Shown piece after piece: positions 19,501 through 39,055 of a DNA stretch of 64,000 nt; within the stretch, counting starts at the first letter, position 1, and every line of letters starts with the position of its first letter. The stretch covers positions 2,847,501-2,911,500 of the forward strand of contig NZ_BAAAXG010000026.1 of NCBI RefSeq assembly GCF_039535475.1. Reading direction: 5' to 3'. The DNA is from Streptomyces showdoensis. GTDB taxonomy: Bacteria > Actinomycetota > Actinomycetes > Streptomycetales > Streptomycetaceae. A program made the position numbers and the translations under genes. The notes beneath the pieces are model-generated. The model had not been told where the DNA came from, did no database searches, and worked only from the letters and a program-made list of their open reading frames with translations.

Positions 19501-19841
19501 GCGCGGGCGGCCGGGGCCTGGAGCGAGCGGGGCAGTGCGTAGGGCCCGGAGCGCTCCAGCTTCCGTACGGTCACCGGGAGCCCGTCGAAGGTGGCGCGGG
19601 CCCCGGCCTCGACGGCCGCCTCGGCGCTCGCCCGCTTGTCGGCGGGGACCTGGCCGGTGACGATCAGGGCGGCGGCCGGGGCCGAGCGGCCCTGGAGGGT
19701 GCCCTGGAGCGCGGCGTCCCCGATGGAGCCGGAGAACGCGGCGAGGGTGGCCAGCACCGAGGTGGTGAGCAGGACGGCGAGCAGGGCCGCCGCGAGAAGC
19801 AGCCGGTGTGCCCTGACGCGCAGAAGTACGAAGCCCGTCAC
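16521..19841 (-). CDS. Very large FtsX-type ABC transporter permease (first permease)
   Basis: About 1106 residues from a GTG at 19841 (MTGFVLLRVRAHRLLL), preceded by AGGGGGA; a GTG six codons upstream lacks a ribosome site. One N-terminal helix (about 10-32) is followed by a large exported domain, then three or more helices near ALLVSRSTLSIVAVQLVLLAAYALLLVARLL. The mid-protein FtsX segment RSGETELLRARGGSRRRIAGLAAVEALLLAV is followed by more helices, a second exported domain, and a final FtsX block RQAEFGLLRALGAPRRQLARLVAAEQGLLVG. It is the first gene of the exporter operon. It should partner the 942-residue permease and the single ATPase at 12597-13550. Confidence 0.9.
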   Translation of the reverse strand: MTGFVLLRVRAHRLLLAAALLAVLLTTSVLATLAAFSGSIGDAALQGTLQGRSAPAAALIVTGQVPADKRASAEAAVEAGARATFDGLPVTVRKLERSGPYALPRSLQAPAARAGDPDLTHFAGLDRSRVALVRGAWPKATGPRDAVEAALPEEAAKLLKVGPGTVLDLTDRLGGKPLKARITGLYRPLDLADLYWQLDPAAGRGVKSLVFTTYGPLVADPSVLASGRVTTGGTSWLGAADFTGITTDRMGALHAAAARGPERMAADTAPFGTTVSAYASLPTVLEQTDRALLVSRSTLSIVAVQLVLLAAYALLLVARLLSTERSGETELLRARGGSRRRIAGLAAVEALLLAVPAAIAAPLLSGPLTRLFADRSALDALGVRLDATAPPAVWLVAALVALCCAGAVVAPALAAGDGAAVSLRKGRAAALPAPVRAGADVGLLLIAGVAYWQLDRQTGEGSGGGALTGDRAGGLGIDPLLVAAPALALLAGTVLTLRLLPPAAKLAERRAAGGRGLPAALAGWQLSRRPLRGAGPVLLLVLAVAMGMLAIGQSASWDRSQRDQADFRTGATIRVLGAGPGDPAQTERIAAVPGVRKAASVHRSGTDVAGHLATVLAVDTRQAADGMLFRPDLTDGPAAKKLAALMPKAGPRPGIPLPAGARALRVDLRDTAPPGAPATRVTAVLEDRYGVPYRRLLGTLPGDGRSHRLGLPLAELGDPENFGLAGLEIGGQSLWGEGGGGHQLVVERLAVEKADGGEQPIGGTSVLTGWAGEYAAELGNGDTTSVPMSARPAANALATVYFHVATEHEGDTGGTKEYTLTLSAPRPAPPRTVPAIVTEAFLAASKAKRGDRVDVTFSGSTLSVRIAEVVRELPTTGPGARAISATAPAATPEDAGAILVDLSTANRALSVTPTASLPPTEWWLSTLPGRTAEVAETLRARPDADPALVLVRDEAAADLLGDPLGAGPNSALMAVAVAAAALAAVGFAVGSAGSLRERQAEFGLLRALGAPRRQLARLVAAEQGLLVGIGLLVGVALGTVLTRAVVPLIVLTGQAERPVPAVLVQLPVGHVALLLAGVSALPLAVVAAIALRRTDPAVTLRTQGEN

Positions 19842-19981
19842 CCATCCCCCTGAAAACACCGTGATCGTTCAGTTTCGAACGTTCATCGGATGCTTTCAGA
19901 GCGATATCGATCTGGAAACCGCTTTCGGTGCCACCTTGACACGATCGTGACCGTTATTCGGGGCGCCGTCACCGGAATGTG

Positions 19982-20386
19982 TCACTCCGCGGTGTTGACC
20001 ATCGAAGCGGCCGCGTAGGTCAGGTACCGCCACAGCTGCGCCTCGTGCTCGGGGGCGAGCTCCAGCTCGTCCACCGCGTCCCGCATGTGCCGCAGCCAGG
20101 CGTCGTGCGCCGCCCGGTCGACCGTGAACGGGGCGTGCCGCATCCGCAGCCGGGGGTGGCCGCGGTGGTCGCTGTAGGTGCGCGGGCCGCCCCAGTACTG
20201 CATGAGGAACAGCACCAGGCGCTCCTCCGCCGGGCCCAGGTCCTCCTCCGGGTACATCGGCCGCAGCAGCGGGTCCTCCGCCACCCCCTGGTAGAAGCGG
20301 CGGACCAGGCGCCGGAAGGTCTCCTCGCCACCCACCTGCTCGTAGAAGGTCTGCTCCTGAAGCGTGCCGCGCGGAATCTCGTTCAC
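19982..20386 (-). CDS. glbO: Group II truncated hemoglobin (GlbO type)
   Basis: 134 residues from a GTG start. The 2-over-2 globin signature is clear: TFYEQVGGEETFRRLVRRFYQGVAEDPLLRPMYPEEDL, then LVLFLMQYWGGPRTYSDHRGHPRLRMRHAPF (proximal His in RMRHAPF) and the group II Trp in AHDAWLRHM. GlbO proteins bind O2 and NO and are linked to oxygen handling or peroxide/NO detoxification. It lies upstream of and co-directional with the exporter operon but is separated by a 140-bp gap, so it is probably transcribed separately. It is divergent from the methyltransferase gene at 20529 with 142 bp between. Confidence 0.95.
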   Translation of the reverse strand: MNEIPRGTLQEQTFYEQVGGEETFRRLVRRFYQGVAEDPLLRPMYPEEDLGPAEERLVLFLMQYWGGPRTYSDHRGHPRLRMRHAPFTVDRAAHDAWLRHMRDAVDELELAPEHEAQLWRYLTYAAASMVNTAE

Positions 20387-20528
20387 CGTTCCATCGTCTC
20401 AGATGCCCGGACGGAGGACCGGAGGCTTAGGACTCCCGGCCGCCCCCCGCCGCCGCCCCCGGCCGCCCCCCGGGCCGGTCCGCGCCGACCGGTGGCCGGA
20501 ACCGTGCGCGGGGCAGCACAGTGGACCC

Positions 20529-21494
20529 ATGCCCGAGATGTTCGCCGAGGAGGCGGCGCGGGCGCGACGGGCGCTGGTGCGCGAGATCGAGGCGTACGGG
20601 GTCCTGCGCGACCCCGCCTGGCGGGACGCCTTCGGCCGGGTCCCGCGCCACCTCTTCGTGCCCTACTACTACGTGCCCGGCGCCGGCGGCTACGAGCGCC
20701 TCTGGTCCGGCGACCCCGACCCCGCCCGCCGCACCCGCTGGCTGCGCGGCGCCTACCGGGACACCGCCCTCGCCACCCGGGTCCGGGACGGCGCCCTGGT
20801 CTCCTCCGCGAGCCAGCCCTCGCTCATGGCGCAGATGCTCGAAGCGCTCGACGTCCGCGACGGCCAGGGCGTCCTGGAGATCGGCGCGGGCACCGGCTAC
20901 CACGCGGCCCTGCTCTGCCACCGCCTCGGCGACCGCCACGTCACCACCGTCGACCTGGACGAGGAGATCGCCGAGTCGGCCCGCGCCCACCTCGCCGCCG
21001 CCGGGCACCGGCCCGCCGTGCTCACCGGCGACGGAGCCCGGGGCTGCCCCGAGCACGCCCCCTACGACCGGGTCGTGGCCACCTGCGCGGTGCCCTCCGT
21101 CCCGTACTCCTGGCTCGACCAGTGCCGGCCGGACGCCCTCGTGCTCACCCCGCTCTCCACCGGGCTCCTGCTGCTGCGGGTGCGCGACCCCGAGCACGCG
21201 GAGGGGCGCTTCCTGCCGACCTCCGCCTACTTCGTCGCCCTGCGCGGCGGCAGCGCCCGCACCCCGCGCCTGCGCACCACCGGGGTGCCCCGGCGGGTGT
21301 ACGAGGACGAGGGCTTCCGGTTCCTGGTGTCCCTGGCGGCCGGGGGCCTCGACACGCGCGAAGCGCTCTCGCTCTGGCAGCGCGAACGGCGGCCGGAGCG
21401 GGAGCGCTTCGGGGTGACGGTGAGCGGCGGGCGGCAGTGGGCCTGGCTGGACGACCCCGAGGGGCCGTACGCCTGGCCCCTGCCGGACCTGTAG
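20529..21494 (+). CDS. PCMT-type SAM-dependent methyltransferase
   Basis: 321 residues from the ATG at 20529. The N-terminal half has RVPRHLFVPYYYVP and SSASQPSLMAQMLEAL, as in protein-L-isoaspartate O-methyltransferases. Motif I, VLEIGAGTGYHAALL, then motif II TVDLDEEI and GDGARGCPEHAPYDRVVATCAV, complete the class I fold. The C-terminal about 100 residues go beyond classical Pcm and are typical of the longer actinobacterial homologues, some of which methylate RiPP precursors. There is no RiPP gene nearby, so repair of isoaspartyl residues or an unknown substrate is more likely. It ends 7 nt before the convergent FHA gene. Confidence 0.88.
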   Translation: MPEMFAEEAARARRALVREIEAYGVLRDPAWRDAFGRVPRHLFVPYYYVPGAGGYERLWSGDPDPARRTRWLRGAYRDTALATRVRDGALVSSASQPSLMAQMLEALDVRDGQGVLEIGAGTGYHAALLCHRLGDRHVTTVDLDEEIAESARAHLAAAGHRPAVLTGDGARGCPEHAPYDRVVATCAVPSVPYSWLDQCRPDALVLTPLSTGLLLLRVRDPEHAEGRFLPTSAYFVALRGGSARTPRLRTTGVPRRVYEDEGFRFLVSLAAGGLDTREALSLWQRERRPERERFGVTVSGGRQWAWLDDPEGPYAWPLPDL

Positions 21495-21501
21495 GGGAAC
21501 C

Positions 21502-22741
21502 TCAGCCGCGCCGGACGGTGATCGTCGTCCAGGCGCCGACGTGCACCCGGTCCCCGTCCTGGAGCTGCACCGGCACATAGGGCTGGATCGGGTCGGCGGA
21601 GCCGTTGATCGTGGTGCCGTTGGTGGAGTTCTGGTCCACCACCGCCCAGGAGCCGTCCGGCTGCTGCACGAGCACCGCGTGCTGGTGCGAGACGCCCGGG
21701 TCCTCCGGCGGCACCGACAGGTCGATGTCGGGCGACTCGCCGGTGGAGTGCCGGCGGCGGCCGATGCTGATCTGGTTGCCCTGGAGCCGGACGTGCTGCT
21801 CCGGGGAGTACGCGGGCAGGTTGAGCCCGGTCGCCTCCGGGCCGCTGCGCTGCATCATCGCCATGAAGTAGTCGCGGTCCGGGCCGATCAGCACCGTCCA
21901 CCCCGCGGGCGGCGCGGGCTGGTGGAACCCCGGCGGCGGACCCTGCGGGGCCGGGCCGGCCGGCGGCACGGGGGCGGGCGGCACGCTCAGCGGGGGCGGC
22001 GCGGGCGCCGGCGACCGAGGCTGCGACGGCGGGGAGATCATCCAGTCGTCGTCCGCCCGCGGCGGGGGCGCCATCGGCTGCGGCGCGGGCGGCGGCGGAG
22101 GCGCCTGGTGGAAGCCCTGCGGGGCCTGCGGCGGCTGCGGGGCCAGCGGCGGACGCTGCGGCGGCGCCTGGTGGTGGGTCGGGTCGGCGCCCAGCGGCTC
22201 GGCCGGACGGTTCACCTGCGAGGGGCGCGAGCCCTGGTACTCGTACGGGTCCCGGAAGGGCTCCGGGTGCTGCGGCTGGGGGTGCTGCGCGTGCGGCGGC
22301 TGCGGCGGCTGCGTGTGCTGGGGCTGCGGGGGTGCCGGCGGCGACTGGAAGCCCGGCGGCAGGTTCAGCCCGGGCGGCGGGCCCTGCTGCGGCTGCGGGG
22401 CGATCGGCGTGTACGAGGTCGCCGTGTTGGTGAGGAAGTTCCAGCGGCACTCCTCGCAGAACGGCGCCATGTGCTCGCGCGGCGTGCGGCACTGCGGGCA
22501 CAGCTCGGCCTGGGCGGTCGCGTTCGGGTCGTAACCCCCGGGACCCCCGGGACCCGCGGGACCTCCGTGGTGCGGCTCGTACCCCCCCGGGACCCCCGGG
22601 ACCGGGGTATCCGTACGCGGGCGGCGGCGGGGGAGGCGGCGGGACGGCACCCGTCGGCGCACCCGCCCCGGCCATGCGATGGCCGCAGACCTCGCACCAG
22701 TCGTCGGAGACCGACTGGTGTCCGTTCGGGCAGGTCGGCAT
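21502..22741 (-). CDS. FHA-domain protein with N-terminal zinc ribbons, interrupted by an apparent +1 frameshift
   Basis: The frame from the ATG at 22741 reads MPTCPNGHQSVSDDWCEVCG (a zinc ribbon) and a polyproline stretch. The continuation, a second ribbon CPQCRTPREHMAPFCEECRW, a long Pro/Gln-rich linker and a C-terminal FHA domain (ISIGRRRHSTGESPDIDLSV, GVSHQHAVLV, DQNSTNGTTING), lies in the next frame. The join falls in a G/C-run region. Removing one base from the C7 tract at 22582-22588 restores a single 412-residue protein. FHA domains bind phosphothreonine, so this is a candidate target of the PknG-like kinase upstream. The frameshift may be a sequencing error, a real lesion or slippage. 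Confidence 0.85.
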
Positions 22742-22780
22742 GTCGGTGCTTCCCCCTCTCGTCGTCCGTCGAGCGTCGCT

Positions 22781-22820
22781 TCCCGGAGCTATTCGGAGCT
22801 TTTCGGAGCTTTTCGGAGCC
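22781..22820. repeat. Four tandem copies of a 10-bp unit between the VWA and FHA genes
   Basis: Four consecutive 10-mers (TCCCGGAGCT, ATTCGGAGCT, TTTCGGAGCT, TTTCGGAGCC) end exactly at the VWA stop codon (22821). The period is close to one helical turn, so the copies face the same side of the DNA. They may form a protein-binding array or just be a slippage repeat. Confidence 0.85.
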
Positions 22821-24164
22821 TTACTTCTTCACGCGAACGGTCTTGGTGGAGCGCGTCTCGAGAGTCATCTCGTCCGCTTCCGCGACCTTCGCCTTCAACC
22901 GCACAGTACCCGTCGCCGCGTCGACCACGTCCACTACCTTCGAAAGGAGTTTCGCCGTATCGGCGTTGCCGGAGGCCGCCGCGAGCTGCACCGCACGTCC
23001 CAGCTTGGCCGTCGCACCGTCCCGATCGCCCGATTTGCGCGCGTCCAGGCCCTCCTGGATCGCGTCGGCGAGCTCGGCCTGCCCGGTGTAGTGGGCGACC
23101 TGCGGGTTGATGGAGGTGGACATCGCCATGTCGTCCGTCCACACCGCCCGCACCAGCCCCTGGGACAGCGTCGTCGGCGTGCCGCCCGCCGGGTCGGGGA
23201 CGATCAGCGAGACCCGGGCGGCCAGCATCTCCTGGCCGATCGCGGCCTCCGGGACCCGGACCGAGACGTGGTAGTCGCGGGACTCGTCGCCCCACGAGCC
23301 GGTCGGGTAGTCACCGGCGCGCGGCCCGGCCTCGGTGCGCCGGCCGGTCAGGTCGTCGACCGTCGGAGCCACCTGCTTCACGAAGCCGATCTCCACGCCG
23401 ACCGGGGTCCACAGGCGCAGCGCGACGTCCGCGACCTCCTTGTCCATGGCGTGTTCCATCATCGTCGTGAAGTCCTGGGCGAGCCCGGCCGGGTTGGCGA
23501 CGATGTCGGCCGTGCCCAGCAGTGCCGAGGCGATGCCGGTGACCTCCTTGACCTCCCAGTCGGTTCCCACCCCGCGGGCGTCGCAGGTGAACCGGCCCGC
23601 GCAGTCGTCCAGGGCGGCCCGCAGGTCCTCCGGCGACTCGTGCTCGTTGCGCCCGTCGGTGAGCAGGATGCCGTGCCGGATCGACGCGTCGCTCGTGGCG
23701 AACAGCCCGGCGGCCAGCCGCAGCCAGGTGCCGATGGCCGTGCCGCCGCCGGCGCTCAGTCCGCGCAGCGCGTCCTTGGCCTGGGCGCGGGTGCGGGCGT
23801 CGGCGACGGCCAGCCGCCGCCCGCCCGGGTAGACCTCCCTGGCGAGGTGGGTGCCGGCGACGACGGCGAAGGCGGTGCCGTCGCGGAGGGTGTCGATCGC
23901 GGCGGCGGCGGCCTCGCGGGCCCCGCGCATCTTGGTCGCCGGGTAGTCCATCGAGCCGGAGCAGTCGAGCATCAGCACGACGGCGGCGGAGCCGCCGCCC
24001 GGGGTGACCGGGGCGACGGAGGTGCCGGTTCCGGTTCCGGGTCCGGCTCCGGAGGCGGTGACGGTGACGATCGCGTTGACGTCCCGGCCGCCCTCGGGCA
24101 GGTACTCGTTCTGGTAGACGTCCACCGAGAACTGGGGCCCGGTCGGCTTGGAGAAGTTGGCCAT
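22821..24164 (-). CDS. VWA-domain protein in the PknG-like signalling operon
   Basis: 447 residues starting MANFSKPTGPQFSVDVYQNEYL; GAGGAGCC precedes the ATG. A complete von Willebrand A domain carries the metal site LMLDCSGSMD (Asp67, Ser69, Ser71), TAIGTWL and GILLTDGRNE. About 200 further residues form beta-rich modules that resemble those of VWA proteins in TerF/terD-like systems, and a C-terminal helical region (AIQEGLDARKSGDRDGATAKL) looks like a TPR-type hairpin. There is no signal peptide, so it is cytosolic. VWA domains bind partner proteins through Mg2+. Position after the phosphatase gene suggests it acts with the kinase/phosphatase pair; the exact role is unknown. Confidence 0.88.
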   Translation of the reverse strand: MANFSKPTGPQFSVDVYQNEYLPEGGRDVNAIVTVTASGAGPGTGTGTSVAPVTPGGGSAAVVLMLDCSGSMDYPATKMRGAREAAAAAIDTLRDGTAFAVVAGTHLAREVYPGGRRLAVADARTRAQAKDALRGLSAGGGTAIGTWLRLAAGLFATSDASIRHGILLTDGRNEHESPEDLRAALDDCAGRFTCDARGVGTDWEVKEVTGIASALLGTADIVANPAGLAQDFTTMMEHAMDKEVADVALRLWTPVGVEIGFVKQVAPTVDDLTGRRTEAGPRAGDYPTGSWGDESRDYHVSVRVPEAAIGQEMLAARVSLIVPDPAGGTPTTLSQGLVRAVWTDDMAMSTSINPQVAHYTGQAELADAIQEGLDARKSGDRDGATAKLGRAVQLAAASGNADTAKLLSKVVDVVDAATGTVRLKAKVAEADEMTLETRSTKTVRVKK

Positions 24165-24209
24165 GGTGATGCGGCTCCTCGGCTCACGGTCACGTGAGGT
24201 GAAGGGAAG

Positions 24210-24247
24210 GTCGGAGTCGTGGTCGTGGGTCGGAGTCGTGGTCGTGG
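24210..24247. repeat. Perfect 19-bp direct repeat between the PP2C and VWA genes
   Basis: GTCGGAGTCGTGGTCGTGG occurs twice in tandem (24210-24228 and 24229-24247) in the 110-bp gap upstream of the VWA start. No gene or terminator is visible in the gap; it may carry an internal promoter. Confidence 0.85.
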
Positions 24248-24274
24248 GCGGGGTGGGAACGACGGGCCGCGGCC

Positions 24275-25636
24275 TCAGGCCGATCCTGCCCCCGCGGACG
24301 GAAGGGCGAACGGCAGCAGCGCGACCGTGACGTTGTCGTGGCCTCCGCCGTCGAGCGCGTGGCCGACCAGGACCTGTGCCCCGTGCAGCGGGCGCCCGGC
24401 GGCGTCCGGGGGGACCACCCGGGCCATGTCCTCGGCGCCCTCCGCGTAGTTCCACAGGCCGTCGGTGCAGACCACGACCACGCCCGGCCGGTCCGGCTTG
24501 AACGAGGCCGTGTGCGGCTCCAGTTCGTACGCGTCGGCGCCGAGCCAGCCGGTGATGGCGTGGGCCCGCTCGTCCGCGTAGGCCTCCGCCTCGTTCATCA
24601 GCCCCGCGGCGACCATCTGCGCGGCCCACGAGTCGTCCTCGGTCAGCCGGGCGGCCGGCGCGGTGCGGTCGTCCGGCACCCAGTAGGCGCGGCTGTCGCC
24701 GACCCAGCCGACCACGAGCAGCCCGCCCGCGACGATCGAGCCGACGATGGTGCAGGCCGGGGCGTTCTGGTGCTCGCGCTCCTTGACGGTCTCCTCCGCG
24801 AGGGAGTTGACGGCCTCGGCGGCGGCCACGATCGCCTCGTGCATGGCCTGCTGCGGGTGCGTCCCGCGCGGCAGCGCGGCGAGCAGCGAGGCACCGGCGG
24901 CGGAGGCGGCGGCGCTGGACGCCTCGTCGGGGCGGGTCGCCGAGGAGACCCCGTCGCAGACGATGGCCAGCGTGGCGGGGGAGCCGTCGGGGAGCGCGGT
25001 CGAGGACACGGCGAAGGCGTCCTCGTTGCGGTGGTGGCGCAGTCCCCGGTCGCTCACGGCGGCGACCGAGGCCAGCTCCTCCTCCATGTGGTCGCGCTCG
25101 CGCGGCTGGGCGTGCCCGCAGTGCTCGCAGTACCCGTCGCGGTCCACCCGGCCGGTCCGGCACGCCACGCACAGCTTCCGGTCGTCGCCCTCGCCCTGGA
25201 GGGCGGTGCGCGGGTCGGGCGCGGCGAGGGTGAAGTCACCGTCGCTGCCCCCGGTGCTGCCGGTGCCGCCCGTGCCCCCCGTACCGCCCGGTTCGGCGGT
25301 GGCCGCGGTGGCCGCGGTGGCCGCGGCGGTCGGTTCCGGCAGGCCGTCGGTGCGGACCGGGACCGTGGGCAGGTCCCGGCCGCCCGAGTCGGTGCCGGGC
25401 AGGTCGCCGGGGTGCTGGGTGGCCGTGGTCAGGGACTGGGGGTCCCGGGGCGGCGGCTCGGGCCAGTCCACCGGCAGGCTGATCGGCACCGTCGGGCGGT
25501 CCGTCCCCGGCTCCGGCTCCGGAACCGCCGACAGGTCGTACCCGCAGGCCCCGCAGAAGCGGTCGCCCGACTCGAGCGGCTCCGCGCACTCGGGGCAGGT
25601 CCCCAGGGGGTGCGGCGGCTTGGGCTTCAGGGACAT
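24275..25636 (-). CDS. PP2C-family serine/threonine phosphatase with N-terminal zinc ribbons
   Basis: 453 residues. The N-terminus has a zinc ribbon (CPECAEPLESGDRFCGACG), a Pro/Thr-rich linker (about 25-145) and a second ribbon (CVACRTGRVDRDGYCEHCG). The PPM phosphatase domain follows: SDRGLRHHRNEDAF, LAIVCDGVSSA, VGWVGDSRAYW, VVVCTDGLWNYA and the final DNVTVALLPF, which supply the metal-binding Asp residues. It has no membrane segment. It starts 2 nt after the kinase stop, so kinase and phosphatase are made together, the usual arrangement for a reversible phosphorylation switch. The obvious candidates for dephosphorylation are the kinase itself and the FHA protein. Confidence 0.93.
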   Translation of the reverse strand: MSLKPKPPHPLGTCPECAEPLESGDRFCGACGYDLSAVPEPEPGTDRPTVPISLPVDWPEPPPRDPQSLTTATQHPGDLPGTDSGGRDLPTVPVRTDGLPEPTAAATAATAATAEPGGTGGTGGTGSTGGSDGDFTLAAPDPRTALQGEGDDRKLCVACRTGRVDRDGYCEHCGHAQPRERDHMEEELASVAAVSDRGLRHHRNEDAFAVSSTALPDGSPATLAIVCDGVSSATRPDEASSAAASAAGASLLAALPRGTHPQQAMHEAIVAAAEAVNSLAEETVKEREHQNAPACTIVGSIVAGGLLVVGWVGDSRAYWVPDDRTAPAARLTEDDSWAAQMVAAGLMNEAEAYADERAHAITGWLGADAYELEPHTASFKPDRPGVVVVCTDGLWNYAEGAEDMARVVPPDAAGRPLHGAQVLVGHALDGGGHDNVTVALLPFALPSAGAGSA

Positions 25637-25638
25637 AC

Positions 25639-28122
25639 TCACACCCACGTCCTGGGGCGGAAGCGGTTGGCCCGCTCCACCAGTTCGATCCTCTCCTCGC
25701 CCTGCTGGGCGAGCCGGGCGAGCACCCGGTACGAGCGTTCGAGGCCGAAGCGCAGTCCGCGCTCGTCCAGTGCGCTGCCGAGCAGCACCGTGCCGGCCGG
25801 GCCCGCGCCGGGGCTGCCGGAGAGCACCCAGTCCAGCGCCGTGCCCAGCACCTCCGTGGAGAGGCGCTCGCGGCGCACCGCGTCCAGGCCGAAGCCCTGG
25901 AGCGCCGAGACCTGCGCGGCGGCGGCCGTCAGATCGGCGCCCAGCGGCTCGTTGGCGGGGCGGCGGCGCAGCCGGGCCCGCACCGCGGCGACCCGGGCCG
26001 CCGTGTAGTGGATCGACGACTCCGGCACGGACTCCAGGGTGCGCACCGCGGCGGCCCGGTCGCCCGCCGCGAGCTGCACCCGGGCCAGGCCGAACGCGGC
26101 GCTGACGTAGCTCGGGTCGGTCGCCCACACCAGGCGGTAGTACTCCGCCGCGTTGTCCAGCTGGCCCAGGAACTCGGCGCAGATGCCGAGCGCCAGCTTG
26201 GGCGCGGGCTCGCCGGGGAAGGCGTCGTAGATCGCGTCGAAGGAGAGCGCGGCGCCCGCCTGGTCGCCGGTGACCAGCGAGGCGACGCCCCGGTACCAGA
26301 CCACCCGCCAGTCGTCCGGGTGCCGCTCCTCCAGCGCGGCCAGCGCCTGGCCAGCCGCGGCGACGTCGCCCATCTCCAGCCGGGCCCGCAGCTCGCGCAG
26401 CCGCAGTTCGAGCGAGGGGACGGGCGCCGCGTGCAGGGCGGTGATCAGCTCGGCGGGCGCGGCGGCCAGCAGACCGGCGAGGAAGCCGGCGTTGGGGTCG
26501 CCCGGATCGACCCGCGGCACCGGCAGCGCCAGCGCCGTCGCGGGGACGTCGAGCGGCCGCAGGAAGCTGCCGCCCCGCCCGGCGACGGCCGTCGGCAGCG
26601 CCTTGCGCCCGCGCCGGGGCGCGCGGGCCCCGAGCACCGACACGTCGTCCGTGTGCTCCTCGAACAGCTCGGTGTCGGTGACCCGCGTCTCCGCGCCGAA
26701 CAGGGTGGAGAGGGCCGGCCGGGGGCGGCCCGACTGCAGGGCGACGACCTCCCGGAGCACGCCGGTCAGCTGCTCGGCCATCTCCTGCGCGGAGGCGAAC
26801 CGGCGGCCCGGGTCCGGGTCGGTGGCGCGGACGAGCAGCCGGTAGAACGACTCGTAGGTGCGCAGCACCTCGATGCCGTCGGGCTCCGGGAGCGAGTCCA
26901 CGAACACGTTCGTGTAGCCCTGGAAGTCGAAGGTCAGCACGGCCAGGGTGCGCGCCACCGTGTACAGGTCGCTGGCCACCGACGGGCCGAGCTCGGCGAC
27001 CTCCGGGGCCTGGTAGCCGACCGTGCCGTAGATCGCCGACTCGTCGTCGTCCATCCGCCGGACCGCGCCCATGTCGATGAGCTTCAGCTGGTCCTCGGTC
27101 TGGATCGCGTTGTCGACCTTGAAGTCGCAGTACAGCAGGTTGCGGCTGTGCAGGTGGCCGAGGGCCTCCAGGGCCTCGATGCCGTACGCGCAGGCCTGCT
27201 CGACCGGCAGCGGGTCGCGGCGGCCGTCGGGGGTGCGCCGGTCGTTGGCGATCTCCTTGAGGGACTTGCCGCCCACGTACTCCATGACGATGTAGCCGTC
27301 CATGGAGCCGGTGCGCTGGTCGAGGTGCTCGACGAAGTTGTAGATGCGGACGATGTTGGAGTGCTCGATCTCGGCGAGGAAGCGGCGCTCGGAGATCGCC
27401 GCCGCCATGGCGTCCTGGTCGCCGGTGTCGAGCAGGCCCTTGAGGACCACCCAGCGGTCCGAGACCGCCTTGTCCACCGCGAGGTAGATCCAGCCCAGGC
27501 CGCCGTGCGCGAGGCAGCCCGCGACCTCGTACTGCCCGTGCACCACGTCCCCGCCGCGCAGCTTCGGCACGAAGGAGTACGGGTGCCCGCACTTGGTGCA
27601 GAAGCCCTCCGTGCGGCCGGCCCGGTCGCCGCGCGAACGGCCCACCGGAGCCCCGCAGTCGGAGCGCGAGCAGAATCGCTTCCGCTCGGGCACCTCGGGG
27701 TTCGCCATCACCGCGGCGCGCGGGTCGGGACGCGGCACCTCCGGCACCGCCACCAGGCCCGCGCCGAGCCGGCCCCGCCCGGACTGGCCGCCGGCCGAGC
27801 CGGAGCTGCGCACCGACACCGAGCGGGCGGTGCTCTGCCCGGACAGCGCGCGCGAGAGCCGGCCGGAGACGGACCGCCGCGAGGTCGAGGAGCGGGAGGA
27901 GCGCGAGGAGCCGCGCGCCGAGGCGCGCGAGCCCGACCGGGCCGAGTCGGAGCCCTTCCCGGCCACGGCCATCCCGGTCGGCGTGGACGCGAGCAGCCCG
28001 CCGGGGGCGACGACGGGGGCGAGCCCGCACGTGTCGCAGTACAGCTCGCCGCCGCCCATGTCCTCGTACGAGCCCTCGCACGACGGACGCTGACAGCTGC
28101 TCACTCCGGACTCCCCGCTCAC
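25639..28122 (-). CDS. pknG: PknG-like serine/threonine protein kinase with rubredoxin-like cysteines and TPR region
   Basis: 827 residues from a GTG overlapping the previous stop (GTGA). The order is a cysteine motif (CQRPSC...CDTC, 10-33), a Ser/Arg-rich disordered stretch (57-115), and a rubredoxin-like module (Cys151, 156, 175, 178). The kinase domain (about 197-480) has loop LAHGGLGWIYLA, Lys228, catalytic loop YCDFKVDN (Asp333) and DMG at 350-352. The rest is a helical TPR-like region. HGGLGW, the absence of an HRD arginine and the rubredoxin module are PknG hallmarks. Mycobacterial PknG phosphorylates the FHA protein GarA to control glutamate metabolism. Here an FHA protein is encoded in the same operon. 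Confidence 0.94.
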   Translation of the reverse strand: MSGESGVSSCQRPSCEGSYEDMGGGELYCDTCGLAPVVAPGGLLASTPTGMAVAGKGSDSARSGSRASARGSSRSSRSSTSRRSVSGRLSRALSGQSTARSVSVRSSGSAGGQSGRGRLGAGLVAVPEVPRPDPRAAVMANPEVPERKRFCSRSDCGAPVGRSRGDRAGRTEGFCTKCGHPYSFVPKLRGGDVVHGQYEVAGCLAHGGLGWIYLAVDKAVSDRWVVLKGLLDTGDQDAMAAAISERRFLAEIEHSNIVRIYNFVEHLDQRTGSMDGYIVMEYVGGKSLKEIANDRRTPDGRRDPLPVEQACAYGIEALEALGHLHSRNLLYCDFKVDNAIQTEDQLKLIDMGAVRRMDDDESAIYGTVGYQAPEVAELGPSVASDLYTVARTLAVLTFDFQGYTNVFVDSLPEPDGIEVLRTYESFYRLLVRATDPDPGRRFASAQEMAEQLTGVLREVVALQSGRPRPALSTLFGAETRVTDTELFEEHTDDVSVLGARAPRRGRKALPTAVAGRGGSFLRPLDVPATALALPVPRVDPGDPNAGFLAGLLAAAPAELITALHAAPVPSLELRLRELRARLEMGDVAAAGQALAALEERHPDDWRVVWYRGVASLVTGDQAGAALSFDAIYDAFPGEPAPKLALGICAEFLGQLDNAAEYYRLVWATDPSYVSAAFGLARVQLAAGDRAAAVRTLESVPESSIHYTAARVAAVRARLRRRPANEPLGADLTAAAAQVSALQGFGLDAVRRERLSTEVLGTALDWVLSGSPGAGPAGTVLLGSALDERGLRFGLERSYRVLARLAQQGEERIELVERANRFRPRTWV

Positions 28123-29396
28123 CACTGGTTCCCCCTGTCGTCCCTCGGCCCCGAAAGCGTCTCGGTCGCCGCCTGCTGGTAGCGCAGGACCGCCTGTTCG
28201 GCCACCCGCAGGTCGCACGGGGCGCTCCACAGCATCCGCCGGGCCGCGTCGTACCGCTCGATCAGCAGCGGGTCCTCCGCCGCGCCGAGCCGGGCCACCT
28301 TGGCCTTGTACGCGTCGAGCCGGCCGCGCAGTTCCGCGCGGACGGCCAGCGGCGCGGTCACCGCGGTCAACGACTCGCGGGCGCGCAGCAGTTCGTCCTC
28401 CGCCTCCCGTTCGAGGGAGTCCAGGAGCGGGGAGAGCCGGTGCCACTGGGCGTGCCTGCGGTACTCGGCGGCGGTGGCCAGCCGTTCGTGCAGGACCGTC
28501 GGCGGTCCGCTGACGGCCGGCACCTCCGAGGCGGCGATCTTCGCGAGGACCTCGCCGCGGGCAGTCCGGGCCTCCGCGAGCGTGCGGTCCGCCCGGGACA
28601 GCACGTCCCGCACCCGCAGCAGCCGGTCCTCCGAGTCCTGCCGGACCTGGAGCACGGCCTCGATCTCCCGCCGGATGTCCTCCAGGGCGCGGGCCGCCCG
28701 GTCGTACCGTCCGGTGTCGGGCCGGCCGCCGCCCGGGGCCGAACTGCCCGTCGCGGGCTGCCAGAAGGCGAGCGGATCGGACACCACCTGGGAGCGCAGC
28801 GCGGTCAGTTCGGCGGTGATCGACTCCAGTTCGTCCCCGGCCGGGTGCTCGCCGGGCCGCACCCCGACCGAGTGCGCCAGGGAGCGGGTCCGGCCCAGCT
28901 CGGCGGCGAGCAGGTCTATCCGCGCGGGCAGCGCGGACCAGACGGCGTCGGCGGTGACGATCACGTCGAGCGAGGCCGCGTACAGCTCGTTCATCCGCCG
29001 CACCAGCTGTTCGAGGGTGAACCGCTCCGACAGCAGGGCCTGTTCGCGCGCCCCGCCGGAGACGTGCACGCTCTCGCCGCGCAGCCGGTCGGTCAGCTCG
29101 GCCAGCTCCTCCCGGCCGGGCCAGCGGCGCCGGGCGCGCACCTCACGGGCGTCGTGCAGGGCGGCGGTGTAGGCGTCGAAGTAGGCCCAGAGCAGGGTGA
29201 TCGTCCGCTCGGTGGACTGCCAGCGGTCCCGGGTCGTGCCGGTCAGCCCGGCGCCTTCGAGCAGCCTGCGGCCGGCGTGGTCCTGGAGCGCGAGGAGCGA
29301 GTCCTCGACCGCCTTGTGCTCGGCGCCGAGCCGCGCCAGCGCACGGTCCACCTCGTCCCGGTCCATCACCGGCCCAGGGGGTCCCGTGACGCCCAT
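28119..29396 (-). CDS. Helical coiled-coil protein of unknown function between glnH- and pknG-like genes
   Basis: 425 residues, almost entirely helical and charged, with no Cys-rich, membrane or signal segments. Long heptad-like stretches occur (for example AARALEDIRREIEAVLQVRQDSEDRLLRVRDVLSRADRTLAEARTA and ELRGRLDAYKAKVARL), separated near residues 210-230 by a short Gly/Pro linker. I do not recognise the family. It begins 15 nt after glnH and its stop overlaps the kinase start by 4 nt, so it is made in fixed ratio with the kinase and may be an adaptor between membrane receptor and cytosolic kinase. Confidence 0.82.
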   Translation of the reverse strand: MGVTGPPGPVMDRDEVDRALARLGAEHKAVEDSLLALQDHAGRRLLEGAGLTGTTRDRWQSTERTITLLWAYFDAYTAALHDAREVRARRRWPGREELAELTDRLRGESVHVSGGAREQALLSERFTLEQLVRRMNELYAASLDVIVTADAVWSALPARIDLLAAELGRTRSLAHSVGVRPGEHPAGDELESITAELTALRSQVVSDPLAFWQPATGSSAPGGGRPDTGRYDRAARALEDIRREIEAVLQVRQDSEDRLLRVRDVLSRADRTLAEARTARGEVLAKIAASEVPAVSGPPTVLHERLATAAEYRRHAQWHRLSPLLDSLEREAEDELLRARESLTAVTAPLAVRAELRGRLDAYKAKVARLGAAEDPLLIERYDAARRMLWSAPCDLRVAEQAVLRYQQAATETLSGPRDDRGNQW

Positions 29397-29411
29397 CGAT
29401 CACCTCTCGCT

Positions 29412-30551
29412 CTACTTGTACTTGGGTGCGGGCGGCCCGGATATCCCGGGCAGGTCCGCCTTCAGCCAGGTCTCGTACGCCCGCTGCCAGGGGCCCTGCC
29501 GGTAGTCGACGAGGACCTTGTTGACCCGGCGGACCAGGTCGTCGTCGCCCAGCTTGGCGGCCACTCCGTAGTACTCGGTGGTGAACGGCTCTCCCTTGAG
29601 CTCGACGGCCGGGTCCTGGGCCGCCTGGCCCGCGGCCAGCGCGTTGTCCGTGAGGACCGCGTCGACCTCGCCCATCTGGAGCCGGGCCAGGCAGTCCAGC
29701 TGGTTGGGGACGGTCAGCAGGTCCGGGTCGTCCTTGGTGCCGTCGCCGACGTCCTTGTAGACCGCGCCGAACGACTTCTCCTCCAGGGCCTCGTAGGCCG
29801 TGGAGCCCTCCGCGGTGCAGACCCGCTTGCCGCTGAGGGAGGCGTCGTAGCCCGTGATCTCCGAGTCCTTGGGGGCGAGGATCTGCTGCCCGACCTGGAA
29901 GTAGGCGGTGGAGAAGGCGACCTGCTGGATGCGCTTGCAGTTGATCGTCATCGTGCGGACCACGAGGTCGACCTTGCGGCTCTCCAGGGCGGCGATCCGC
30001 TGGTTGGTCGGGATGGTCCGGAAGACGATGGCGTCCTCGTCGCCGAGGATGTCCTTGGCTATGGCCCGGGCCAGGTCGATGTCGAAGCCGACGAGCCGGC
30101 CGGGGGTGGTCTCCTTCCGCCCGTCCGGCAGCACCTTGGTGGTGGCGGGCGTGCGGTAGCCCCAGCGGTAGCTGTTCTGGTCGACGCCCACGATCAGCTT
30201 GCCGCGCCGCTTGACGGCGGCCACGGCGGGGCCGTCGACGGAGGACGGGGTCAGCGAGGCGTCGGGGTCCTTGCAGCTGTCGGCGGTCTCGGCCCGCACC
30301 TGCAGGCCGGTGCCCACCCCGGGACCCGTGACCACGGCCGACGGGGCGGCTCCGGCGCCCGCCCGCGGCAGCGACAGCAGGGCCGTCGAGACGGTCAGGG
30401 CGCAGACGGTCGCCATGGCGGCGACCCCGCCCCAGCCGCGCAGGCGTCGGGCGACCCGGCGCGCGGCCGCGCGGCCCGCCGACGGGCGGACGGGCACGGT
30501 GCCGTCCGGCACCCGGCCCGCCGGGCTCGTGTGCTCGACGCCGTCCGGCAT
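29412..30551 (-). CDS. glnH: GlnH-like periplasmic-type amino-acid binding protein (membrane-anchored)
   Basis: 379 residues. About 35 basic/disordered residues are followed by one hydrophobic segment (GGVAAMATVCALTVSTALLSLP, about 41-62) that could anchor or export the protein; there is no clear lipobox. The remainder is a family 3 solute-binding domain: GKLIVGVDQNSYRWGYR, LVGFDIDLARAIAKDI, IPTNQRIAALESRKVDLVVRTMTI, then VDAVLTDNALAAGQA and KVLVDYRQGPWQRAYETWLKA. No ABC permease or ATPase gene is adjacent, which fits a sensor rather than a transporter part. In M. tuberculosis GlnH binds Asp/Glu and signals through GlnX to PknG. It lies 14 nt downstream of the glnX-like gene. Confidence 0.88.
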   Translation of the reverse strand: MPDGVEHTSPAGRVPDGTVPVRPSAGRAAARRVARRLRGWGGVAAMATVCALTVSTALLSLPRAGAGAAPSAVVTGPGVGTGLQVRAETADSCKDPDASLTPSSVDGPAVAAVKRRGKLIVGVDQNSYRWGYRTPATTKVLPDGRKETTPGRLVGFDIDLARAIAKDILGDEDAIVFRTIPTNQRIAALESRKVDLVVRTMTINCKRIQQVAFSTAYFQVGQQILAPKDSEITGYDASLSGKRVCTAEGSTAYEALEEKSFGAVYKDVGDGTKDDPDLLTVPNQLDCLARLQMGEVDAVLTDNALAAGQAAQDPAVELKGEPFTTEYYGVAAKLGDDDLVRRVNKVLVDYRQGPWQRAYETWLKADLPGISGPPAPKYK

Positions 30552-30565
30552 TGCGCCGCCCCCTC

Positions 30566-32002
30566 TCACCGGTACTCCGACAGTCTGCGGTTGACCCCCG
30601 TGACGGCGCACGCCGCGCCGAGCACGCCGAGCACGGCCGCGCCCAGCGGCAGCCCGGTCAGCGCGTCCCGGCCGCCCTCGGCGGCCCGGGTGAACTCGTC
30701 CTGCTCGTGGGCGAGGGCCCGGCCGAGGGCCGCGTCGACCTGGTCGAAGGAGCGGCCGGTCGAATCCGCCGGGCCGATGATCCGCTGCATCGCGCCGTCG
30801 AAGTCGCCGGCGTCGTCCTTCTCCCGCGCCTGGGCGTGCCGTTCGCGCCACTCGCCGGCCCGGGTGGCGGCCTCGGTGAGCGGGCCGCGGCCCTCCTCGT
30901 CGTCGGCGAGCCGGGTCGCCGAGCCGAGGGCGGCGGTCAGGGCGGACACGCTGGCCGCGTAGTCCGCCTCGTACTTGTCGCGCTTGCCGTCCTCGGTGAG
31001 CACGGCGCCGCGCGCGACGACCGTCAGGTTCTCGCTGGCGCGGGCCTTCAGGGAGCTGATCCGGGCCTCGTTGAGCACCTGGAGGGAGTCCTGGCCGTGC
31101 GCCCGGGCGTCGTCGAGCCCCGCGCGGGCCAGGCCGTGTCCGGCGAGCAGCCACAGGAGGCCGACCAGGCAGGCCGCGGTCGCGCCGAGCAGCCCTCGGT
31201 TGAAGACCCGGTTGGTCCGCTCGTAGCTGCGGCGCTGGGCCCAGACCAGCGCGGCGAGGGCCAGCAGTCCGAGGGCGAGCGAGAGGAACGGCCAGACCCG
31301 CGCCGCGTCGTCGTCCTCGTGCAGCCGCTCGGTCTCCGCCGCGTACAGCCGTTCGGCGGCGGGCAGCAGCTCCTGGGCCATCGTCTGGTTCGCGTAGCGC
31401 AGGTAGGCGCCGCCGAGCGGCAGGCCCTGCCGGTTGGCGGCGCGGGCCCGCTCCACCAGGCCGGTGTAGCGGGGCAGGTGCTCGCTGAGGGTGGCGAGCT
31501 CGCGGGCCGAGTCGCCGGAGGCGTCGGTGCTGGCGGCGGCCTTCACCAGGAGCCGGGAGGCGGTGGTGACGTCGTCCGTGTACCGCTCGCGGATCTGCGC
31601 GGACTCCTGCGGGCCGGCCAGGAAGCCGCTCGCGGCGGTGGCGTCGGCGTCGGCGAGCGAGCGGTAGATGTCGGCCGCGTCGGCGCTCAGCGGCTGGCTG
31701 CGGCCGACCACGTCGTCCGCGTACGAGGCGCGGTCGGCGACCTCGAAGGCCGTGACGGCCCCGAAGGCGACGACGAGCAGCGCCAGCACGGCACCCAGGA
31801 AGCGCAGCCGGCCGGGCTCGGTCGTGGCGGCCCGGCGCAGCAGCTCGCGGCCCTGCGCCCAGGCGCCGGGCGCCGCGGGCGGCGGGACCTCGGCCGGAGC
31901 CCCCGCTCCGGTCTGCGCGGGCACGCCGGATGCCGGTCGCACGGGCGCGCTCGTGGCGCCCTGCGCCGCCGAGGCGGCGGGCGCGTTCGGCGGGTGTGTC
32001 AC
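30566..32002 (-). CDS. glnX: GlnX-like four-TM membrane signalling protein
   Basis: 478 residues from a GTG start. A disordered Pro/Ala N-terminus leads to TM1 (FLGAVLALLVVAFGAVTAFEV, about 69-89) and an exported four-helix-type sensor domain (about 90-235). TM2 (VWPFLSLALGLLALAALVWA) and TM3 (GLLGATAACLVGLLWLLAGHGL) follow, then a second exported helical domain, TM4 (GLPLGAAVLGVLGAACAVTGV) and a very short basic tail. This duplicated sensor layout, and its position upstream of glnH and pknG, match mycobacterial GlnX. GlnX relays GlnH ligand binding to PknG. It is the first gene of the operon; its promoter must lie in 32003-32247. Confidence 0.85.
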   Translation of the reverse strand: MTHPPNAPAASAAQGATSAPVRPASGVPAQTGAGAPAEVPPPAAPGAWAQGRELLRRAATTEPGRLRFLGAVLALLVVAFGAVTAFEVADRASYADDVVGRSQPLSADAADIYRSLADADATAASGFLAGPQESAQIRERYTDDVTTASRLLVKAAASTDASGDSARELATLSEHLPRYTGLVERARAANRQGLPLGGAYLRYANQTMAQELLPAAERLYAAETERLHEDDDAARVWPFLSLALGLLALAALVWAQRRSYERTNRVFNRGLLGATAACLVGLLWLLAGHGLARAGLDDARAHGQDSLQVLNEARISSLKARASENLTVVARGAVLTEDGKRDKYEADYAASVSALTAALGSATRLADDEEGRGPLTEAATRAGEWRERHAQAREKDDAGDFDGAMQRIIGPADSTGRSFDQVDAALGRALAHEQDEFTRAAEGGRDALTGLPLGAAVLGVLGAACAVTGVNRRLSEYR

Positions 32003-32247
32003 GTGACCTCCCCCTCGGTCTGAGACGTCGACCTGTCCGTCCGGTGGAGCGGCGGACGACTCCCGGCCAGCAGTATGGCCGCAGCGACTCGCCCGTACAC
32101 CGGGATTGACTGGATCTTGTTCCTATCGTGCCGCATGCCCGCGGGCCTTCCGCAGGCGAACCCCCCTTCACACATCCCTCACTTTGAATACGTCGCCCGG
32201 CCGGAATCGGTTCCTTCTCGAACGTCGCTCGTACGAGTGAACACGCG
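32003..32247. other. Gap upstream of the glnX-like operon
   Basis: Together with the terminator at 32248-32278 this is the longest gene-free stretch in the right part of the window (302 bp in all). It must contain the promoter of the leftward signalling operon. The part at about 32095-32225 is less GC-rich than its surroundings. I see no ORF with coding character on either strand and no convincing operator palindrome. Confidence 0.45.
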
Positions 32248-32278
32248 TGCGGGGCGCCCCGTGAGGGAACGCCCCGCA
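32248..32278 (-). terminator. Terminator of the csn operon
   Basis: TGCGGGGCG and CGCCCCGCA form a 9-bp GC-rich stem with a 13-nt loop, 27 nt past the csnK stop on the minus strand. Confidence 0.7.
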
Positions 32279-32304
32279 TCCGTGCGCTTCCGTGCGCGCG
32301 CCGG

Positions 32305-33273
32305 TCAGGCCCCGTAGTGCGCCCGCAGCCGCGCCGCCGCCTCCGGCCCCGCGCCCCAGGCGTCCAGGGCCAGCAGCCCCGCGCCCAGCACCGGCGGGGC
32401 GGTCACCACGCCGATCACCGCCTTCGGCGCCTTCGCCGCCAGGAGGTCGGCGATCCGGGCGTCGAGCCGCGGATGGCGGGCGGCCAGCACGCTGCCGCCC
32501 AGCACCACCGGAGCCTCCTCGTCGAGCAGCCCGAGCCGTCCGAGGGCGACCGAGGCGAGCGCCACCACCTCGTCGGCCAGCCGGTCCACCAGCGCCTGCG
32601 CCACCGGGTCGCCCGCCGCACCGGTGCGGAAGAGCACCGGCGTCAGCTCGTGCTTGCGCTCCACCGGGATCCGCCCCAGGTGCAGCGCCTCGATCAGCGC
32701 GTACATCGTCGGCAGCCCGAAGTGCGCGGGCAGCGTGCGGGCGAGCTCCGTGGGCTCGCCCCGCCCGTCCTCGGCGCGCGCCGCGAACCACAGGGCCTCG
32801 TCGGCGAGTCCGCCGCCCCCGCCCCAGTCGCCGGAGATCTTGCCGATCGCCGGGAACCGCGCGGTCCGCCCGTCCGGCAGCATGCCGACGCAGTTGATGC
32901 CCGCCCCGCACACCACGGCCACGCCGCGCGGCTCGTCGATCCCGGCCCGCAGGATGGCGAAGGTGTCGTTGTGGACGTGGACCGAGCGGCTCCAGCCGCG
33001 CGCCTCCAGCGCCGCCTTCAACTCCGCCTCCTCCACCGGCAGGTCGGCGTTGGCCAGACAGGCCGCGACCACCTCGAACTCGGCCGGGACGCCGGCCTCG
33101 GCGCAGGCCCGGCCGACGATCTCGGCCAGCGCGCCGACGGCCGTGTCCACCCCCACCACGGGCGGCTGGAACCCTCCGCCGCGCGCCGCGCCGAGGACGG
33201 TGCCGTCCCCGCCGACGACGGCGACGTCGGTCTTGCTGTTGCCGGCGTCGACGGCCAGCGCGACCCCTCTCAC
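32305..33273 (-). CDS. csnK: CsnK-like BadF/BcrA-type sugar (glucosamine/N-acetylglucosamine) kinase
   Basis: 322 residues from a GTG overlapping the csnH stop (GTGA). The actin-like ATPase fold is visible: ALAVDAGNSKTDVAVVGGDG (phosphate 1), VHNDTFAILRAG, VVCGAGINCVG (phosphate 2), KISGDWGGGGGLADEALW and VVLGGSVLAA. This is the BadF/BadG/BcrA-BcrD family that includes N-acetylglucosamine kinase. As the last gene of the csn operon it most plausibly phosphorylates glucosamine released from imported chitosan oligosaccharides. The exact substrate (GlcN or GlcNAc) is inferred from context. Confidence 0.87.
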   Translation of the reverse strand: MRGVALAVDAGNSKTDVAVVGGDGTVLGAARGGGFQPPVVGVDTAVGALAEIVGRACAEAGVPAEFEVVAACLANADLPVEEAELKAALEARGWSRSVHVHNDTFAILRAGIDEPRGVAVVCGAGINCVGMLPDGRTARFPAIGKISGDWGGGGGLADEALWFAARAEDGRGEPTELARTLPAHFGLPTMYALIEALHLGRIPVERKHELTPVLFRTGAAGDPVAQALVDRLADEVVALASVALGRLGLLDEEAPVVLGGSVLAARHPRLDARIADLLAAKAPKAVIGVVTAPPVLGAGLLALDAWGAGPEAAARLRAHYGA

Positions 33274-34535
33274 GCCCACGCGAGGTGCTCCCGGTTGTGC
33301 GCGATCAGACGGTCCGTGAGCGCCTCGGCGTACCCGAACTGCCCGACCAGCGGGTGGGCGAGCAGCGCCTTGAACACCCGGTCCCGGCCGCCCTTGAGGG
33401 CCGCCTCCAGGGCCAGGTCCTCGTAGGCGGTGACGTTGGCGATCAGCCCCGCGAAGAGCGGGTCGAGCCGCGGCACCGCGAGCGGCGAGGCACCGGCCGG
33501 GCCCACCGCCGCCTGCACCTCGATCACCGCGTCGTCCGGCAGGAACGGCAGCGTGCCGTTGTTGTACGTGTTCACCACCTGGTACGGGGAACCTCCGCCG
33601 CCCAGCAGCGAGGCGGCCAGGTCCACGGCCGCCTCCGAGTAGAAGGCGCCGCCGCGCTTGCCGAGCAGCGCCGGCTTCTCGTCGAGCGCGGGGTCCCCGT
33701 ACATCTCCAGGAGCTGCTTCTCCATCGCGGCGACCTCGGCCGCCCGCGAGGGCTTGGAGCCGAGCTCCTTCACGACCTCGTCGTGGGCGTAGAAGTAGCG
33801 CAGGTAGTACGAGGGGACGACGCCGAGCCGGTCCACGAGCTCGCGGTCCATGCGCAGGTCGGCGGCGACGGCCTCGCCGTGCTCGGCGAGCAGCCGCGGC
33901 AGCACGTCCTCGCCCTCGGGGCCGCCGAGCCGTACCCCGGTCTCCCAGGTCAGGTGGTTGAGGCCGACGTGGTCGAGGTGGACCTCGCCGGGGGTGACGT
34001 CCAGGAGCGCGGCGAACTTCCGCTGGAAGCCGATCGCCACGTTGCACAGGCCGACCGCCTTGTGCCCGGCCTGGAGCAGGGCCCGGGTGACGATGCCGAC
34101 CGGGTTGGTGAAGTCGATGATCCAGGCGTCCGGGTTGGTGCGGCGCACCCGCTCGGCGATGTCCAGGACCACGGGGACCGTGCGCAGCGCCTTGGCGAGG
34201 CCGCCGGCACCGGTGGTCTCCTGGCCGACGCAGCCGCACTCCAGCGGCCAGGTCTCGTCCTGCTCGCGGGCGGCCTGCCCGCCGACGCGCAGCTGGAGCA
34301 GCACGGCGTCCGCGCCCTCCACTCCCGCGTCGAGGTCCGAGGTGGTGACGATCCGCCCCGGGTGCCCCTGCTTGGCGAAGATCCGCCGGGCGAGGCCGCC
34401 GACCAGGTCGAGCCGCTCGGCGGCCGGGTCGACGAGGACGAGTTCGGTGATGGGCAGGGTGTCGCGCAAGCGTGCGAACCCGTCGATCAGTTCGGGGGTG
34501 TAGGTGGAGCCGCCCCCCACGACAGCGAGCTTCAT
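33270..34535 (-). CDS. csnH: CsnH-like GH4 family glycosidase (6-phospho-beta-glucosidase type)
   Basis: 421 residues. The N-terminal Rossmann motif MKLAVVGGGSTYTPELIDGF binds NAD+; IIDFTNPVGIVT, the metal-ligand Cys in AVGLCNVAIG and the metal-ligand His in VGLNHLTWE are the GH4 signature. GH4 enzymes use NAD+ and a divalent metal in a redox-elimination mechanism to split, typically, 6-phospho-glycosides. In the csn operon it should cleave internalised glucosamine oligosaccharides. Whether it needs a phosphorylated substrate is open, since import here is by an ABC system. It starts 9 nt after csnG and overlaps csnK by 4 nt. Confidence 0.9.
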   Translation of the reverse strand: MKLAVVGGGSTYTPELIDGFARLRDTLPITELVLVDPAAERLDLVGGLARRIFAKQGHPGRIVTTSDLDAGVEGADAVLLQLRVGGQAAREQDETWPLECGCVGQETTGAGGLAKALRTVPVVLDIAERVRRTNPDAWIIDFTNPVGIVTRALLQAGHKAVGLCNVAIGFQRKFAALLDVTPGEVHLDHVGLNHLTWETGVRLGGPEGEDVLPRLLAEHGEAVAADLRMDRELVDRLGVVPSYYLRYFYAHDEVVKELGSKPSRAAEVAAMEKQLLEMYGDPALDEKPALLGKRGGAFYSEAAVDLAASLLGGGGSPYQVVNTYNNGTLPFLPDDAVIEVQAAVGPAGASPLAVPRLDPLFAGLIANVTAYEDLALEAALKGGRDRVFKALLAHPLVGQFGYAEALTDRLIAHNREHLAWA

Positions 34536-34544
34536 AACAGTCGG

Positions 34545-35447: not shown

Positions 35448-35450
35448 GGG

Positions 35451-36392: not shown

Positions 36393-36399
36393 CGGACGG

Positions 36400-37743: not shown

Positions 37744-37804
37744 GGCGGGTCTCCCTGGAACGGGCGGGGCGGGGGCGGGGGCGGACGGTGTGGCGGTTTC
37801 GGGG

Positions 37805-39025: not shown

Positions 39026-39055
39026 GTCGGAGTCCGCCTTGTCCCGCTGCACTGT

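Follow-up and report, generated by a model that had tools for sequence, protein, structure and literature searches.

A larger PknG-GlnH-GlnX gene module in Streptomyces showdoensis with candidate ArnA-like and ArnB-like partners

Introduction

Few bacterial kinases have been studied as thoroughly as PknG, but what is known of it comes from lineages with only three genes of an apparently larger module. The solute-binding protein GlnH senses aspartate and glutamate and works via GlnX on PknG, the whole relay running GlnH-GlnX-PknG-OdhI/GarA (PMC6069109, PMC9769921); direct GlnH-GlnX and GlnX-PknG contacts were termed not yet demonstrated (PMC9769921). The GlnX-GlnH-PknG operon has been described as conserved in Actinobacteria, including Streptomyces, and figure 2B of that study may show more genes (Bhattacharyya 2018, PMC6069109). 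We examined a seven-gene run in a 64,000-nucleotide stretch of DNA (the window; 70-78% GC in 4-kb steps) from the 8.5-Mb genome of Streptomyces showdoensis, in which these three genes are joined by genes for a coiled-coil protein (CC), a PP2C phosphatase, a VWA protein, and an FHA protein. An initial annotation of this DNA had proposed such an extended set, and our analysis bears it out.

The additional genes recall an archaeal system. In Sulfolobus acidocaldarius, ArnB is a VWA protein with a beta-sandwich and a C-terminal helical domain, ArnA combines a zinc finger, a linker, and an FHA domain, and the pair is accompanied by a kinase with a TPR-like part (ArnC), a phosphatase, and a nutrient response; all of these features have likenesses in the Streptomyces run. 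We propose, with modest confidence, that the run encodes a switch in which GlnH, GlnX, and PknG would act on the tail of the VWA protein, the FHA protein would read that tail, and PP2C would reverse the mark, all beside the classical control of GarA.

Gene content of the locus

The seven genes lie on the minus strand from 32002 to 21502, in the order GlnX, GlnH, CC, PknG, PP2C, VWA, FHA, separated by gaps of 14, 15, −4, 2, 110, and 79 bp. Place and order are those first annotated, and profile matches confirmed every family except that of CC. GlnX (30566..32002; NF058618, 470 bits against a cut-off of 250) has four hydrophobic segments (residues 68-86, 236-254, 270-288, and 452-470), in agreement with the four-transmembrane receptor predicted earlier. 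GlnH (29412..30551; PF00497) is a family-3 solute-binding protein with an N-terminal membrane segment, and the run holds no ABC partner genes, again as predicted. CC (28119..29396) is modeled by AlphaFold as a coiled coil or helical bundle with a predicted local distance difference test score of 93.5; it had no family match in Pfam or NCBIfam and no PDB match at E <= 0.001, and it is a possible scaffold for the module.

The kinase (25639..28122) is PknG-type, consisting of a zinc ribbon, a Ser/Arg-rich segment, rubredoxin (PF16919, 110 bits), a kinase domain (PF00069), and TPR (PF16918, 309 bits), and it keeps the catalytic Lys, the catalytic-loop Asp, and the Asp-x-Gly motif as Asp-Met-Gly. 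The extra N-terminal zinc ribbon was recognized by eye; at the place of this ribbon and the Ser/Arg-rich stretch, the sequence L057, from a family (f3) that we infer to be Mycobacteriaceae from kinship and PknG scores, has an acidic segment with TQ. This comparison covered 21 chosen loci, 8 of which fell outside the print pattern. N-terminal zinc ribbons are found alike on PknG, on PP2C (24275..25636; PF13672, PF13248), and on the FHA protein (21502..22741; PF00498), in which several ribbons and a Pro-rich linker precede a C-terminal FHA domain with the motifs G-R, S-x-x-H, and S-T-N-G. The VWA protein (22821..24164; VWA match with PF18571) comprises a beta-sandwich, a VWA domain with a metal ion-dependent adhesion site, a C-terminal helical domain, and a tail with S439 and T442.

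An FHA gene is present, as in the earlier annotation, and its start is most likely the ATG at 22741 and not 22662. The zinc-ribbon N terminus and the FHA domain are in different frames, and the switch occurs close to seven consecutive G residues (22582-22588). Because the gene reads in a single frame across the corresponding site in a near relative (L038), a sequencing slip is likely, the alternative being a real frameshift.

We predict from this arrangement that the seven genes form one operon. The minus-strand stretch between GlnX and a sugar-kinase-like gene ending at 32305 (32003..32304) is, by its position, the likely promoter region, although no sigma-70 consensus site was found in 21300-32400.

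The nearest solved structure to GlnH is the mycobacterial GlnH 6h1u (E 4.5e-46); Arg147, Thr162, and Trp232 are named as side-chain contacts of the Asp/Glu pocket (PMC6069109). The window GlnH keeps Arg147, Thr162, Arg169, and Asp250 and has Gln in place of Trp232. Gln occupies this position in all 43 pattern-fitting GlnH proteins of Streptomycetaceae (58 examined; 15 outside the pattern and unread), and Trp does so in 13 of the 14 pattern-fitting f3 proteins (16 examined). Because Arg147 and Thr162 are kept but Trp232 is Gln, an acidic amino acid is a likely, though not certain, ligand. By eye, no lipobox cysteine is evident at the N-terminal hydrophobic segment of GlnH, which differs in this from the Corynebacterium lipoprotein GlnH (PMC9769921).

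The locus thus shares with the Mycobacterium/Corynebacterium operon the sensor, relay, and kinase families encoded together, their order GlnX-GlnH-PknG, and a GarA gene elsewhere in the genome, and it differs in its four additional genes, in the zinc ribbon and Ser/Arg-rich segment of PknG, and in GlnH, where Trp232 is replaced and no lipobox is evident.

Conservation and loss of the module

Gene order is conserved far beyond chance. At E <= 1e-20, the PknG_TPR profile matched 140 of 394 genomes of the class and 117 of 121 of the family. We compared 100 PknG regions (40 from Streptomycetaceae and 60 others), a non-random sample hand-picked for spread in which some genomes gave two to four regions. 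All seven genes occurred on one strand in 60 of them, so the gene-order check suggested with the initial annotation came out in its favor: these were all 40 Streptomycetaceae regions, 14 from family f89, 5 from f90, and 1 from f3. The f89 order is different (CC-PknG-PP2C-VWA-FHA-GlnX-GlnH). Eight regions had six genes without a recognized CC; in L112-L115 a CC-like end was seen by eye in an open frame that separates GlnH from PknG, and none was seen in the other four. The 20 f3 regions otherwise held GlnX-GlnH-PknG only (15) or PknG alone (4), both f113 regions held three genes, and the remaining 11 of the 100 had other partial sets, some at contig ends. Among 18 further Streptomycetaceae loci, 17 had all seven genes and 1 was cut at a contig end. 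The VWA gene was only partly readable in one frame in L021, L029, and L177, and a few other loci had single split genes.

Genome-wide, the VWA family occurs in 97 of the 394 class genomes, 94 of which also have PknG (the others being G369, G633, and G658), and CC occurs in 88, of which 84 have PknG. Among the places listed, 85 of 119 for VWA lie within 6 kb of one for PknG; among the remaining 34 are contig breaks, PknG places off the list, and paralogs. A second set of 80 named loci, the best 80 of 590 found by two VWA motifs, came from Kribbella, Cellulomonas, Nocardioides, Intrasporangium, Rathayibacter, and other genera. In its 60 loci of at least 15 kb, FHA was always the next recognized gene after VWA, and PknG was found in the same direction in 53, only in the opposite direction in 4, and not at all in 3.

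Some copies stand outside these patterns. The VWA-FHA pair can be apart from the kinase operon, as in Rathayibacter (L223, L246, and L254), where PknG lies only on the opposite strand. The f90 loci L117, L118, and L125 carry further PP2C-VWA-FHA sets with no or a partial PknG match, so their kinase may differ. PknG copies without GlnX and GlnH alongside occur in the f3 loci L062, L064, L065, and L068.

Which parts belong together can be judged from five genomes in which some have been lost naturally, in effect a ready genetic experiment. Among 133 Streptomycetaceae genomes (two samples pooled), G369, G635, G667, G761, and G762 had no PknG_TPR match at the above threshold. All five retain CC, PP2C, and FHA in order, with the key motifs of PP2C and FHA intact by eye. 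In the last four, GlnX and VWA had no genome-wide match and GlnH was absent from the 20-kb locus to which its search extended; G761 keeps a PknG remnant, and G369 has GlnX, GlnH, PknG, and VWA as fragments. In a tree built on CC, PP2C, and the neighboring truncated hemoglobin (trHb), G761 (0.99), G667 (0.99), and G369 (0.60) each stand beside a relative with the whole set, G635 falls near G667 with the intact L056 in between, and G762 is on its own branch. The same four genes were lost independently four or five times, even though they are interspersed with the retained ones in the operon, and GlnX, GlnH, PknG, and VWA therefore form one unit. Since FHA is kept where VWA is gone, it must also have work without VWA.

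These losses bear on the earlier idea that the kinase has its own target in the operon FHA protein. This now seems unlikely, because FHA survives without an intact kinase or VWA in five genomes. The VWA protein is a better candidate for a dedicated PknG target, because its gene goes missing along with that of the kinase and its C terminus bears a conserved S-x-x-T.

The VWA tail and the ArnA-ArnB likeness

The tail was compared in 96 near-full-length VWA proteins from the fetched loci, six partial ones being left out. The motif [LIVN][DEN]xxSxxT ends all 86 that have an FHA gene in the locus and 1 (L092) of the 10 that do not; a zinc ribbon terminates 7 of the remaining 9 (Fisher p 8e-12, relatedness ignored). 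It was also present in 80 of 80 VWA proteins of the separately fetched second set. A second Streptomyces kinase-VWA pair (L119, L120, L121, L132, and L133) has no FHA or PP2C match, and its VWA ends in a zinc ribbon and not in S-x-x-T. The FHA-less paralogs are paralleled in Sulfolobus by ArnE, an ArnB paralog without phosphosites.

The initial annotation saw no counterpart of the VWA and coiled-coil proteins in the mycobacterial model; this account was incomplete in that it overlooked the archaeal ArnA-ArnB pair. After its ortholog, the best whole-length match of the VWA protein is ArnB, at 12% sequence identity and with the same three-part architecture. The FHA family profile matches ArnA (8s05_C and 5a8i, E 1.4e-10 and 2.9e-10) across both the zinc-ribbon and FHA parts, and the order zinc finger, linker, FHA is common to both. 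In the archaeal pair, an ArnA FHA domain of the double-pSer/pThr class binds the phosphorylated C-terminal domain of ArnB. Unlike ArnAB, the module is bacterial, has PP2C in place of PP2A and an FHA protein with multiple zinc ribbons, and is associated with no archaellum. A likeness to ArnB is in print for a VWA protein of Catenulispora acidiphila (PDB 4fx5), without the operon in the excerpts at hand (PMC6509490, PMC12852372). Among the papers listed by a multi-term literature search, none named both ArnB and PknG, although papers with only those two words would escape it, and the available main text of PMC8546545 contains neither "von Willebrand" nor "Streptomyces."

Proposed mechanism and alternatives

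The proposal combines the observed gene content, order, conservation, folds, architecture, tail conservation, and co-loss with two elements taken from published work on other organisms, the GlnH-GlnX-PknG relay and the ArnAB phospho-switch. GlnH would bind an extracellular amino acid that is probably acidic, and GlnX would pass the signal through the membrane to PknG at its TPR domain. PknG would then phosphorylate the ArnB-like VWA protein in its C-terminal tail (candidate sites T437, S439, T440, and T442), whereupon the FHA domain of the ArnA-like protein would bind the tail and tighten a VWA-FHA complex that is loose beforehand. PP2C would reverse the phosphorylation, and CC may serve as the scaffold. 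The steps at VWA and FHA, like whatever the complex may control, are inferred. If correct, this scheme supplies PknG with a possible second output that has named candidate phosphosites, a reader, and an eraser, and it links a bacterial amino acid sensor to the ArnAB switch, for which the literature covered describes no upstream nutrient sensor.

The VWA-FHA arm would run parallel to the classical GarA control of 2-oxoglutarate metabolism. Against the OdhI/GarA model (cut-off 200), the operon FHA protein reached only 22 bits, and no ETTS motif was found in its translations; it is not a stand-in for GarA. A GarA ortholog elsewhere in the genome scored 186 bits, also below the cut-off, contains ETTS (SETTSTISISG), and lies beside a MerR-like frame by eye. 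GarA is phosphorylated at ETTS in Saccharopolyspora (PMC12321487); by eye, 20 of 37 printed GarA segments have ETTS and the rest have variants such as EQTS. Of 148 class genomes, 140 contain GarA/OdhI relatives, and each of the five loss genomes does too (in G762 with only a partial alignment, 113 bits). Their presence here and in the loss genomes argues that the module would be an addition to GarA control and not a replacement for it. The earlier suggestion of a target "rather than (or besides) GarA" thus holds in its second part and fails in its first.

Several observations weigh against the proposed switch. The tail motif was defined from the same sequences as the 86/86 count, and the FHA-less VWA proteins represent few paralog lineages and so few independent events. 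The best FHA match by E-value, level with ArnA, is 1uht ("expressed protein"), which we take to be a plant protein, and Streptomyces GarA likewise carries a zinc ribbon. The similarity to ArnB is weak (profile E 1.2e-7), and ArnB-type folds are widespread (Sec23/24, YfbK; PMC12852372). The FHA protein is retained in the five loss genomes, none of which has an intact VWA; it therefore has another role and perhaps does not read VWA. The gaps on either side of VWA (110 and 79 bp) could hold internal promoters, and with Gln at position 232 the ligand specificity of GlnH may differ.

It is also conceivable, if improbable, that the kinase acts on GarA only, as in mycobacteria, and that VWA, FHA, PP2C, and CC are neighbors with other jobs. 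The published relay ends in OdhI/GarA, the genome has a GarA ortholog with ETTS among relatives found throughout the class, and 46 of 140 PknG genomes have no VWA-family match, which counts against our proposal as well. Such neighbors would not explain why strand, order, and co-occurrence are conserved across families or why VWA is lost or broken along with the kinase in five genomes; moreover, the N-terminal segment that recruits the FHA substrate (PMC8546545) is replaced by a zinc ribbon and a Ser-rich stretch in the printed module-type PknGs. That every loss genome shows the identical four/three split and keeps the PP2C and FHA motifs intact by eye fits two linked sub-systems, GlnH-GlnX-PknG-VWA and a CC-PP2C-FHA group that serves other Ser/Thr kinases and does not read the VWA tail. 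We hold this to be unlikely too, given the invariable succession of FHA after VWA in the second-set loci of at least 15 kb, the tracking of FHA presence by the tail motif, and the ArnAB precedent. TerY-P and type VI secretion phosphorylation pathways use the same domain types, so a generic kinase-phosphatase-VWA-FHA relay of that kind, controlling the assembly of a membrane complex, could be imagined. We regard it as very improbable for a true PknG (PF16918/PF16919) with a GlnX/GlnH sensor and a VWA protein whose best whole-length match beyond its ortholog is ArnB, although no search was aimed at TerY or type VI secretion families.

Relation to the mycobacterial set

A further insight concerns the famous three-gene mycobacterial system, which, these data suggest, was pared down from a larger set. 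In a PknG tree rooted on distant kinase-VWA paralogs, the f3 PknGs from three-gene and PknG-only loci form one clade (1.0), sister (0.99) to that of L066, the one f3 locus in which the full set of seven occurs, and the f3 clade is placed among lineages with larger sets. Reduction from the larger module is the simplest reading. It is not proven because several nodes are weak (0.27-0.62): supports from the root to the f3 clade are 0.27, 0.96, 0.53, 0.50, 0.62, and 0.99, leaving root and nesting uncertain. More speculatively, and with some doubt on our part, the actinobacterial module and archaeal ArnC-PP2A-ArnB-ArnA could be versions of one old nutrient-responsive switch, with mycobacterial PknG-GarA a secondary form stripped of its VWA-FHA output and left with GarA.

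Neighboring genes

About 300 bp separate the start of the run from the sugar-kinase-like gene, and 7 bp lie between its end and a convergent PCMT-type methyltransferase gene (20364-21494). Upstream on the same strand is a sugar gene cluster (32305-39052) with a GH4 glycosidase, a transporter subunit, and a ROK-type regulator; a GH4 match was present in 17 of 20 same-genus regions (L037-L056). The trHb gene (PF01152; 19982-20386), on the same strand in 33 of 40 Streptomycetaceae regions, is separated from the run in the window by the convergent gene. Farther downstream, 12597-19859 encodes an ABC ATPase and two large FtsX-type permeases.

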